This document shows, piece by piece, positions 31,438 to 35,495 of a stretch of 37,324 nucleotides of DNA. The position numbers and the translations under genes are program-made. A model generated the notes under the pieces. The model did not search any database. It was not told where the DNA came from and worked only from the letters and a program-made list of their open reading frames with translations. Numbering within the stretch: position 1 is the first letter of the stretch; each line of letters opens with the position of its first letter. This DNA is from Planctomycetales bacterium (GTDB lineage: Bacteria; Planctomycetota; Planctomycetia; Isosphaerales; Isosphaeraceae), in NCBI GenBank assembly GCA_027451885.1, contig DAIDHX010000205.1, forward strand, positions 1-37,324, given 5' to 3'.

Positions 31438-31898
31438 GCGCTCGACTTCTCGCCTCCCGGTCGCTCTGACTCCGGCTGGTCGTCGTCCATCTTGTGCATC
31501 CAGTGCGAAATATTCTCGTAATCCTCCAGGCGGTAAACCCAGATCGGACTACGACCGAACACGTTGTAACGCACCAGACGAGGCTGGGGCTCGTCCTCAA
31601 GCCTCAGGCGAACAATGAACTGCCGGGCGTTTTCAGTCTCGGTTTTACTCAGGATCTCAAAACTCCTGAGCTTTTGAGCAGGCCGACGTTGCTGGTCGAC
31701 AAACTGGATTCCCTGCGAGGAAACCGCAGTCAAGCGATCCGGTGAGTCGCGCCAGGATGTGAGCGCCGATTCGAGTGCTTTGCGTGCCTCGTTCCAGTCC
31801 GGCAGAAAACCCGTCGCCTGCGATGGGCTTTCGGTTGAACATCCACAAGCGAACAACAGACCCGCCGCGAAACTCATCCACCGATGAGCCCTGATCAC
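31368..31898 (-). CDS. Lipoprotein A, paralogue of the DUF1559-linked lipoprotein
   Basis: About 176 residues from a GTG at 31898 (MIRAHRW leader) or 169 from the ATG at 31877. The signal peptide ends in FAAGLLFACGCS, and a Cys within that run is the lipidation site. The body clearly matches the lipoprotein at 33721: EAR-x-x-LE-x-AL-x-x-W, then IQ-x-VD, SFEI, A-x-QF-x-V-x-L, VRY-x-V-x-GR-x-P and a final DY. The acidic/Ser-rich C-terminal tail of about 45 residues extends past the homology and overlaps the 3' end of the secreted Gly/Tyr-rich gene. The frame is open far upstream, but that part has no signal peptide logic. Neither start has a strong Shine-Dalgarno. Function is unknown. Confidence 0.75.
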   Translation of the reverse strand: MIRAHRWMSFAAGLLFACGCSTESPSQATGFLPDWNEARKALESALTSWRDSPDRLTAVSSQGIQFVDQQRRPAQKLRSFEILSKTETENARQFIVRLRLEDEPQPRLVRYNVFGRSPIWVYRLEDYENISHWMHKMDDDQPESERPGGEKSSAQGADEKLRPGSSAGEPGALKPK

Positions 31899-32666: not shown

Positions 32667-33707
32667 ATGCCTGTCCGACGTTCCGGCTTTACTCTGATTG
32701 AATTGCTCGTCGTCATCGCTATCATCGCGGTCCTGATTGCGCTTCTTTTACCAGCGGTTCAGTCCGCTCGCGAAGCGGCCCGGAGGGGCCAGTGCCTGAA
32801 CAACCTCAAGCAGTTTGGGATCGCGATTGCCAATTACGAGAGCAGTTTCAAGGTATATCCCTTCGGCAAGGGGACAAGTTATACCTCGATCCCAGGCGCG
32901 GTGGTTTACGCCCGGTGGTCGGCCCATAGCCAGCTTTTGCTCTACATCGAGCAGGGCAACCTCTTCAACAGCATCAACTTCAATCTTCCACCCGAAACGC
33001 CTGGGATGGCGGGCGCTGTCCCCTTCATGCCGCCTTACCAGGATCCGAACCGTGAGAACATGACCGCCTCAATGACCCAGGTGGCGGCCTTTCTTTGCCC
33101 ATCGGATAATCCGCCGATCAGCACCTGGCCGGGCGGCAACAACTACGCCTCGAACCAGCAAACCTGGCTCTGCGACCTGAGCGAGAATCAGCCGAGCTCT
33201 ACTGCCCCGGCCGAGATTCCGCACGGCATCTTTTATTACGATAGCTCAGTGAAAGCCTCGGCCGTGACCGACGGGTTGTCGAACACCGCGTACTTTAGCG
33301 AGAAGATCCGCGGGACCGGCATGCCGAATCCCAGGACTGACATGCTCGTCAATCCGAATCAGACGTCTCTCAACGCCACCTATCTTACGTGCAATCAGTC
33401 GAACCCGCTGACCACGCCGCCGCTCACGAGCCGCTGGGGCATGAGCTGGGTCATGGGGGAGAACTGTTGCACGCTCTACAACCACGTGGCAACGCCGAAT
33501 TCGCTGACTTGCGCTGGGCTGGGATTCCCCGGCAGCATGGCCAACATGTCGATGCAAGTTCCCCCATCCAGCAATCATCCCGGCGGAGTGAATGTGCTCA
33601 TGGGGGATGGGTCGGGCCGATTTATCAAGAACACGGTGGGGTTGGTTGTCTGGCGCGCGCTTGGAACTCGGAACCAGGGCGAAGTCGTCTCGGCCGATAC
33701 TTATTGA
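32667..33707 (+). CDS. DUF1559 prepilin-like protein (H-X9-DG family)
   Basis: A 346-residue protein with a type IV prepilin N-terminus: a short leader, then [23 protein letters not shown], with the prepilin peptidase site before Phe and Glu at +5. It continues with the conserved [15 protein letters not shown] stretch. The body matches the DUF1559 family, which is massively expanded in planctomycetes, and ends in the H-X9-DG motif ([18 protein letters not shown]) found near the C-terminus. It is presumably a pseudopilin-type surface or secretion-apparatus component. A GGGGAGA ribosome-binding site precedes the ATG. The next gene starts 13 nt after its stop, so they form an operon. Confidence 0.95.
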
Positions 33708-33720
33708 ACCAAAAGAGGCG

Positions 33721-34203
33721 ATGAACATGATTCAGCATATCAAAACGAAGTGTCGGCTGCTGCTCGCCGCCGCCGTGATTCCTCTGGGTTATTCGGGATG
33801 CGGCTCGAGCCAGGCGAGATTCACGCCCACGAAGGATGAAGCACGGGCATCGCTCGAAAAGGCGCTTGCGGCCTGGAGCAAGGGCGCGGCATGCGGCGCG
33901 ATCGAGTCAACTCCACCCATTCAGGTAGTTGATTCCGACTGGCTGGGAGGATCCAGGATCGAATCCTTCGAGATCGGTGCGGAAGAGGAGATCGAAGAAG
34001 GCGCCAAGCAGTTTGAGGTGAAGCTCACTCGCAAGCCTGCGAAGGGCGCTCCGAGCGTCGACGCGGTGCGTTACGTGGTTTACGGCCGTGCGCCTGTATA
34101 TGTATTCCGCGAGGACGATTATCAACGCACGCTGAACATGGACAATAACCCCGGGGGGACGGCGCGGGGGCCTGTCAGGCGCGGCCGGAGATCACGGTTG
34201 TGA
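33721..34203 (+). CDS. Lipoprotein B, downstream of DUF1559 and coupled to the RND adaptor
   Basis: About 160 residues with a basic n-region, a hydrophobic LLLAAAVIPLGYSGC and lipidated Cys27 (a Tyr at -3 makes the lipobox imperfect). The mature domain is homologous to lipoprotein A: DEARASLEKALAAW, IQVVD, SFEI, AKQFEVKL, VRYVVYGRAPVYVF and a DDY. The ATG at 33721 has AGAGG close upstream; ATG 33727 is an alternative. It follows the DUF1559 gene by 13 nt. Its stop overlaps the adaptor's GTG in the sequence GTGA, so it is translationally coupled to metal efflux genes. Function is unknown; the context suggests an envelope accessory of the pseudopilin or efflux system. Confidence 0.85.
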   Translation: MNMIQHIKTKCRLLLAAAVIPLGYSGCGSSQARFTPTKDEARASLEKALAAWSKGAACGAIESTPPIQVVDSDWLGGSRIESFEIGAEEEIEEGAKQFEVKLTRKPAKGAPSVDAVRYVVYGRAPVYVFREDDYQRTLNMDNNPGGTARGPVRRGRRSRL

Positions 34204-35495
34204 CCCCTGCCAACGCGGCTGAGCGGCAAAATTCCGTGGCAAGCCGATTCTGGCACGCGATCAAGCTCGTTCAGATCCGGCTGAGGATTCCGGTTGCGCT
34301 TCTCGCCGCGCTTCTACTTGTGGGCAAGTGGGAATCCATCCGCAATGTCTGGGTCGGCTGGGGGCGATCATTCACTCTCGAGCGCGCTGGCATGGGCCCG
34401 GTGTCGGGCGATACAGAATACTTTTGTCCCATGGATCCCGGCGTCGTTTCCGATTGGCCGGGGAAATGTGGTGTATGCAACATGGCGCTCGTGCGCAGAA
34501 AGCGAGGCGAGGCGAGCGCCTTGCCCGACGGCGTGGTCGCGCGGATGCAGCTCTCGCCGGCACGAATCGAGCTCGCCAATATCGAGACGGTTCCGATCGA
34601 GTCTCGGTCACTCGCACGCGTGATCGAGCTTGACGGCTCCCTGATGCGCGAGGGAAAGTCGCTGGTGGTCCAGGCCGTCGCGCAGATGCGTCATGCTGCG
34701 TGGATCGTGCCCGGGCGCGAGGCGCAGGTGAGCTGGCCGGACGAGCCGGGAAAGCCCGCGGTTGAGGCTCGGATCAGCGCGGTCGAGCGTGTCGCGGATG
34801 GACCGATACAGCGGCTCAGGATCGCGGCGAAACTCAAGGTTGGGGAGCCGGCCGCGGAAGTGGGCGCACGGGTTCGACTTCTGATCAACGCCCCGGTGAG
34901 TGAGCTCGAGCCCTTCCGATCTCGGGCTGGTTCCGCACCCTTGAGCCAGGTGCTTGCGGTCCCACGATCGGCGGTTGTGGAGCTGGAAAGCGACGGCTCT
35001 GCGGTGGTCTTTGTCGAGTCCGCGCCTGGAATGTTTGAAGGCGTTGCTGTGATGCTCGGTCCTCGCTGCGGTGATTTCTATCCGGTGGTGAGCGGGCTCG
35101 AGCCAGGACTCCGCGTGGCCGCCTCGGGCGCTTTCTTGCTCGATGCGGAGACCCGGCTCAACCCCGCGCTCGCTTCGGCCTATTTCGGAGCGCGTGCAAC
35201 CGGTGGTGCTGTCGCGCAGGCAAATCCTTCTGCCAGGCCACCCGAACGCCGTTCCACGTCTCCCAGCGACCGCATTGAGCAAGCGCTCGCGCAGCTTGTG
35301 CCCGCGGATCGAACCGCGGCCAGGCGCCAGGCTCGATGCCCGGTCACGGGCAAGCCGCTCGGCTCGATGGGCACTCCCGTGCGAACCGTCGCGGAAGGGC
35401 GCGTGGTTTTTCTTTGCTGCGACGGCTGTGCGGAATCTTTCAAAGACGATCCTGGAACATATCTTTCCCGCCTGAACTCACCTCAAGCCCCATGA
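34200..35495 (+). CDS. RND efflux periplasmic adaptor with two metal-binding domains
   Basis: A 431-residue CusB/CzcB-type membrane-fusion protein. One membrane helix lies at about 29-41. A heavy-metal-binding domain with YFCPMDP and CGVCNMALV (Cys76, Cys90, Cys93) follows. The adaptor core comes next, including PRSAVVELESDGSAVVFVE and VVSGLEPGLRVAASGAFLLDAETRL. The C-terminus is a YHS/TRASH-like domain (CPVTGKPLG, then FLCCDGCAESF; Cys380, 406, 407, 410) typical of metal chaperones. The lipoyl/alpha-hairpin portion usual in adaptors appears missing: only about 20 residues separate the first barrel strand (IELDGSLM) from the AWIVPG segment. The start is a GTG overlapping the stop of lipoprotein B. 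The stop overlaps the pump ATG. The metal is not identified. Confidence 0.88.
   Translation: MTPANAAERQNSVASRFWHAIKLVQIRLRIPVALLAALLLVGKWESIRNVWVGWGRSFTLERAGMGPVSGDTEYFCPMDPGVVSDWPGKCGVCNMALVRRKRGEASALPDGVVARMQLSPARIELANIETVPIESRSLARVIELDGSLMREGKSLVVQAVAQMRHAAWIVPGREAQVSWPDEPGKPAVEARISAVERVADGPIQRLRIAAKLKVGEPAAEVGARVRLLINAPVSELEPFRSRAGSAPLSQVLAVPRSAVVELESDGSAVVFVESAPGMFEGVAVMLGPRCGDFYPVVSGLEPGLRVAASGAFLLDAETRLNPALASAYFGARATGGAVAQANPSARPPERRSTSPSDRIEQALAQLVPADRTAARRQARCPVTGKPLGSMGTPVRTVAEGRVVFLCCDGCAESFKDDPGTYLSRLNSPQAP

Follow-up and report, generated by a model that had tools for sequence, protein, structure and literature searches.

The window analysed here is the entire contig C205 (37,324 nt) of a 6.18 Mb planctomycete genome, and its last part carries plus-strand genes in the order DUF1559 pilin-like protein, lipoprotein, RND adaptor and CusA-like pump (Table 1). 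The DUF1559 gene apparently heads this operon. Lipoprotein and adaptor overlap by four bases (GTGA), as do adaptor and pump (ATGA), which fits the expectation for a translationally coupled operon. The contig ends within the pump gene, the remainder of which lies on contig C144 (L059:2-2080, 692 aa); about 8 aa are missing between the two contigs. Beyond the pump, C144 continues with two opposite-strand genes, one for a short protein and one for a kinase-like protein; judged from size and order, they resemble the genes that follow the homologous pumps of loci L009 and L027. A search for an outer-membrane factor (OMF) gene downstream of the pump, proposed as a check when the adaptor was first described, found none on C144, and none is present on the window contig. 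The lipoprotein matches no Pfam family. Two lipoprotein paralogues, one with the tail HWMHKM and the other, the operon copy, with the tail NMDNNP, flank the DUF1559 gene and point away from each other. In 13 of the surveyed loci there is likewise a divergent second copy, and it is uncertain that the copy in the window belongs to the pump system.

Table 1. Genes of the operon region and parts of the adaptor, in positions of the window.
Feature	Position	Strand	Basis
Divergent lipoprotein paralogue, tail HWMHKM	31467..31880	-	profile match E 1e-37
DUF1559 pilin-like gene (SBP_bac_10, N-terminal methylation motif)	32667..33707	+	Pfam PF07596 E 3.4e-44, PF07963 E 1.8e-8
Lipoprotein, 160 aa, lipobox Cys27	33721..34203	+	sequence
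RND adaptor without hairpin and lipoyl domain, 431 aa, GTG start, intact ORF	34200..35495	+	Pfam, alignment, AlphaFold, structural match
Adaptor: membrane anchor helix, residues ~28-50	34281..34349	+	hydrophobic stretch; helix 7-63 in model
Adaptor: HMBD, residues 74-98	34419..34493	+	Pfam PF19335 E 1.3e-9
Adaptor: beta-barrel, residues 139-232	34614..34895	+	AlphaFold strands 139-151, 154-162, 174-178, 188-200, 203-212, 224-232
Adaptor: insertion site of the homologues' module, residues ~241-250	34920..34949	+	alignment with 27 homologues
Adaptor: second half of the membrane-proximal domain (MPD), residues ~250-320	34947..35159	+	NCBIfam TIGR00999 match 154-315; structural match to CusB, BesA
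Adaptor: C-terminal YHS/TRASH-like Cys-rich domain, residues ~378-424	35331..35471	+	Pfam YHS below cut-off; invariant Cys
CusA-like heavy-metal RND pump, first 611 aa	35492..37324	+	PF00873 E 1.2e-106, TIGR00914 E 2.9e-128

The adaptor and its missing section

The original prediction suggested that this adaptor lacks the lipoyl/hairpin section, and Pfam, paralogue alignment, AlphaFold2 and structural alignment to CusB agree that it does. The barrel-sandwich domain HlyD_D23, found with an E of 1.9e-69 in the paralogue on contig C133 of the same genome, has no Pfam match in the window adaptor. Aligned to that paralogue, the protein is missing the lipoyl-hairpin-lipoyl section as a single clean block between ..GSLMREG and KSLVVQA.., and domain profiles place 5 residues between the first MPD half and the barrel, against 149 in the C133 protein. 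In the AlphaFold2 model (28-sequence input, pLDDT 81), a turn joins strands 139-151 and 154-162, residues 151-154 being the point where the section is gone, and no helix longer than 6 residues occurs between residues 64 and 310. An intact hairpin in a predicted structure had been named as the finding that would speak against the deletion; the model has none, and the hairpin is absent from the model of the sister adaptor L027 too (pLDDT 80). VIA-align matches residues 108-318 of the model to residues 79-391 of E. coli CusB (187 residues aligned, Z 14.2, rmsd 3.4) and residues 121-318 to BesA (Z 14.2), while residues 140-232 give barrel-only structural matches with Z 11-13.5.

Among the features of a four-domain CusB/HlyD adaptor, the window protein has the MPD, the six-stranded beta-barrel and a co-encoded RND pump, the CusA-like gene that it overlaps, and it has neither lipoyl domain nor alpha-hairpin. 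Because these two are missing we do not file it as a standard member; it is a variant of the CusB/HlyD kind. Nor does it follow the BesA-type pattern, in which the hairpin is lost and the lipoyl domain kept, as it is without both. At its pump end it probably works like a CusB-type adaptor.

A metal domain had also been noted at each end of the protein, and both Cys-rich domains are real, though unequal in their matches. The HMBD match exceeds the Pfam cut-off, and the cysteines of the C-terminal YHS-like domain (C380, C406, C407 and C410, in CPVT..LGSMG.P..CC.GC) are invariant in 28 homologues, but the YHS match itself reaches 17.1 bits against a Pfam cut-off of 30.3. The two domains are not at opposite ends of the molecule, since both ends of the adaptor chain sit at the membrane/pump side.

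Twenty-seven aligned close homologues carry about 80 extra residues between the barrel and the second MPD half, and the window copy is alone among 28 close relatives in being without them. We considered whether these residues, located near window residue 247, could be a displaced hairpin and rejected the idea: they form two further Cys-rich, HMBD-like domains. Since the tree nests the window adaptor inside the module-bearing clade, and since some hairpin-bearing adaptors from other families of the phylum (L169-L171) contain the module too, this double module was probably lost in the window copy (or dropped by the assembly) and separately lost in the lineages of families f2 and f3, where hairpin-less adaptors are as a rule module-less. 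The hairpin-bearing C133 paralogue (L060:5892-7763) has two YHS/TRASH-like domains inserted between the barrel and the second MPD half.

These observations bear on the reading that a deletion in the assembly, or decay of the gene, explains the adaptor, to which the solitary absence of the internal module among 28 relatives and the position of the gene near a contig end lend some colour. However, the same hairpin loss occurs in intact frames in dozens of other genomes, which excludes the assembly deletion that the original prediction had itself named as a danger, and we reject an artefactual loss of the hairpin. Adaptors without hairpin and without module are usual in f2 and f3, and the start/stop overlaps and the invariant residues are intact in the window copy, so that artefact or decay has next to no probability.

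Distribution and gene neighbourhood

Homologues were inspected for the same deletion, as the original prediction had suggested. Of 45 genomes from the same family, 30 yielded hairpin-less adaptors in a search with a profile of the adaptor family (in G016 a contig end truncates the copy), and related adaptors came from other families of the class, all in one clade; named matches include Isosphaeraceae and Paludisphaera soli, whose cultured strain JC670 carries the locus (L024). When 392 genomes sampled evenly across the phylum were searched, two from outside the class matched at the threshold used, and their proteins bear a hairpin. For comparison we assembled 38 hairpin-less and 39 hairpin-bearing adaptors. 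From the first MPD half to the barrel there are 2-27 residues in hairpin-less proteins with a barrel profile match and at least 127 in hairpin proteins; further hairpin-less proteins have 82-120 residues at that point, their barrel being too diverged for the profile. Three members (L112:847-2055, L113:8291-9295 and L116:6254-7309), which fall in two places of the tree, have the MPD halves directly joined: they keep the anchor, HMBD, MPD and YHS-like domain and have no barrel, lipoyl domain or hairpin. With the barrel lost as well, nothing would remain in such members to form a duct. The hairpin-less adaptors form one clade with a support of 100, which adjoins the hairpin-bearing L120 and L123, both with an OMF within 1.5 kb, and all the hairpin-less ones stem from a single event.

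Using an OMF profile built from 12 OMFs of the source genome and CusC, we found an OMF gene within 6 kb of 0/38 hairpin-less and 27/39 hairpin-bearing adaptors (Fisher p 1.2e-11). When both flanks extend for at least 5 kb, the counts are 0/20 and 23/29 (p 1.6e-8). As the hairpin-less clade is single, these neighbourhood counts are not independent, and what they show is stable co-inheritance. An independent Pfam search of eight hairpin-less genomes gave no OMF on the adaptor contigs among the matches listed, each of these genomes having OMFs elsewhere, and placed an OMF beside the adaptor in the hairpin control G379. The linked OMF of tripartite HME-RND systems of the CusCBA type is therefore absent here, and the source genome has many unlinked OMF genes on other contigs. 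The proposal that the adaptor works without a TolC-like partner gains comparative support from the counts, short of proof in a genome with so many unlinked OMFs.

The main rival reading builds on those unlinked genes: the system would still be tripartite and would recruit an OMF in trans through the barrel ring, the docking domain of the pump or the lipoprotein. BesA offers a precedent, as it works with BesC although it has no hairpin (PMC3807786), and the docking region of the pump is undeleted. Yet OMF genes are gone from the neighbourhood of every hairpin-less locus, the lipoyl domain is absent too, unlike in BesA, and some relatives are also without the barrel; we regard recruitment in trans as rather unlikely.

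What does stand beside the hairpin-less adaptors is the lipoprotein, directly upstream of 37 of the 38 and of none of the 39 hairpin-bearing adaptors, and the sole exception, L115, has just 170 bases of upstream sequence. A DUF1559-type gene on the same strand lies upstream at 25/38 hairpin-less and 0/39 hairpin loci. Genome-wide, strong full-length lipoprotein matches (E <= 2e-31) occur in all 30 same-family genomes with a hairpin-less adaptor and in one of the 15 without, and in G029, which is outside the set of 38, adaptor and lipoprotein are both present about 2 Mb apart. A lone full-length family lipoprotein was seen at G022:C1:2997195-2997587, in a genome with no detected hairpin-less adaptor. 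Cys27 is invariant in the lipoprotein alignment. Weaker relatives are scattered elsewhere, most of them without a match to the C-terminal EDY..HWEHKM/NMDNNP part. With its Met/His/Trp-rich tail the lipoprotein is a candidate metal acceptor or donor. The suggestion that it is used in place of an outer-membrane channel gains comparative support from its near-constant position next to the adaptor, but gene linkage alone would not prove that it replaces an OMF.

The CusA-like pump

The pumps of the hairpin-less systems retain the metal site of CusA and depart from it in the proton relay. The Cu(I) site of CusA consists of M573, M623 and M672 with E625 (PMC8092243), and the window pump has kept all of these positions, each of which is conserved in 29-30 of the 30 hairpin-less pumps. 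In E. coli CusA, E939 forms a relay with D405 and K984, and mutating D405, E939 or K984 stops transport (PMC8092243). D405 and K984 are kept in the hairpin-less pumps, as are T987 and K482. At the position of E939 an acidic residue (E or D) occurs in 33/33 hairpin systems, whereas 29/29 hairpin-less systems carry S, A or G there. The hairpin-less pumps also have invariant Met or Cys residues at E. coli positions 352, 571, 594, 597, 604 and 627; the hairpin pumps mostly have other residues there. One and the same split may account for all of these fixed differences. A loss of the pump docking domain to match the absent OMF was not seen, one relative having a 21-residue gap. Transmembrane Met pairs, examined as a hint to the metal source, are poorly conserved in both groups and uninformative.

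After E. coli position 636, most of the planctomycete CusA-like pumps compared here contain an insert of about 160-340 residues. We rejected the insert of about 170 residues as a mark of the hairpin-less state, because hairpin systems carry it too. Elsewhere, a single 1518-aa frame on genome contig G000:C209:7228-11427 combines an RND permease with an HlyD-type adaptor domain, apparently a natural fusion of pump and adaptor, and an OMF gene comes next; L011:9344-13861 has a similar frame of 1505 aa, again followed by an OMF.

In a further reading, the system no longer performs efflux and, with E939 gone, the RND protein serves as an uncoupled channel, as a metal sensor or, instead of detoxifying, as a loader of metal onto a lipoprotein or another cuproprotein. 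The substitution at E939 in 29/29 pumps, at a site where mutation abolishes transport in E. coli (PMC8092243), the constant lipoprotein partner and the extra invariant Met/Cys residues of the pump are all consistent with it. Against this, the retention of D405, K984, T987 and K482 means that some proton relay may remain, and the Met triad is fully conserved; we hold a non-efflux role to be improbable.

The divergence of the pumps also bears on a mixed adaptor ring, in which the short adaptor would pair with a hairpin-bearing paralogue such as the C133 copy. TriA and TriB are thought to pair in such a mixed ring. The same genomes hold hairpin-bearing paralogues with the same domain types, and CusB sits on CusA as a trimer of dimers (PMC4446572). 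Each adaptor, however, comes with a CusA dedicated to it, many fixed positions distinguish the two groups of pumps, and the hairpin-less and paralogue genes are unlinked. A mixed ring thus seems very improbable.

A proposed reduced metal-pump system and its relatives

We lean slightly towards a reduced heavy-metal RND system, in which lipoprotein, hairpin-less adaptor and CusA-like pump, encoded in one tight operon, act without an outer-membrane channel dedicated to them. From their place at the pump end, the HMBD and the YHS-like domain would capture a soft metal in the periplasm, most likely Cu(I) and perhaps Ag(I) or Zn(II), and hand it to the periplasmic cleft of the pump. The adaptor would load or gate the pump and build no conduit, and metal leaving the pump would pass to the periplasm or to the lipoprotein with no sealed tube. 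Since no member has given up the anchor, the MPD or the metal domains, selection seems to have favoured a function at the pump and not at the outer membrane. In CusB, the MPD and barrel are the parts that contact the pump. Several points count against a reduced system: the counts behind it go back to a single event, these genomes hold many unlinked OMFs that could act in trans, pumping from periplasm to periplasm without a duct has no obvious benefit unless there is a metal acceptor or a cytoplasmic source, and the docking region of the pump is kept. A more specific version can be put forward tentatively, namely that a bacterium with two membranes has given up the trans-envelope conduit for a bipartite inner-membrane RND metal pump. 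Its MPD-centred adaptor would bear the metal domains, a lipoprotein dedicated to it would accept or donate metal, and its relay would be rewired to do without E939.

The closest adaptors in the tree are planctomycete hairpin-bearing HMBD/YHS proteins (L060 on C133, L120, L123 and L171), which share the anchor, HMBD, MPD, barrel and YHS-like domain. They differ in having the lipoyl-hairpin-lipoyl section, in the usual presence of an OMF within 6 kb, in the absence of the lipoprotein, and in pumps that are acidic at E939. CusB of E. coli CusCFBA shares the MPD and barrel fold, a CusA-type partner with the same Met triad and the adaptor-pump gene order, but it has a lipoyl domain, a folded hairpin and a linked OMF (CusC), its pump has E939, and its N-terminal metal site relies on Met residues and has none of the HMBD cysteines. 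BesA of Borrelia burgdorferi BesABC (PDB 4KKS-4KKU), the closest known adaptor, is likewise a hairpin-free RND adaptor whose MPD and barrel align with the window protein; unlike the window protein, it keeps the lipoyl domain and is linked to the OMF BesC (PMC3807786, PMC2279261). BesA also lacks both HMBD and YHS-like domain and serves a pump of the multidrug type. EmrA, an adaptor of an MFS pump, has also lost a whole standard domain, and its barrel matches with Z 12.1, but it lost the MPD and kept a long hairpin, the opposite loss (PMC4158417).

Reviews treat BesA as the hairpin-less exception, with its lipoyl domain kept, and describe RND adaptors otherwise as four-domain proteins (PMC4446572, PMC8277102, PMC3807786, PMC13328181); lacking the hairpin alone, BesA has been seen as possibly the greatest challenge that the tip-to-tip model faces (PMC4446572). 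In the open-licence literature that we searched, we found no lipoyl-less RND adaptor and no account of this planctomycete operon. Contact between adaptor hairpins and an outer-membrane channel is the foundation of RND efflux models. The adaptors described here make up a widespread clade without hairpin and lipoyl domain, in some members without a barrel, in which the channel gene is gone from the vicinity and a lipoprotein stands in its place. Because the whole clade lacks the acidic residue at E939, the need for this residue in proton coupling is directly testable. If metal is pumped, this system would reveal the role of the adaptor for the pump itself, apart from conduit building, and would tell whether an RND pump is useful without an exit duct.
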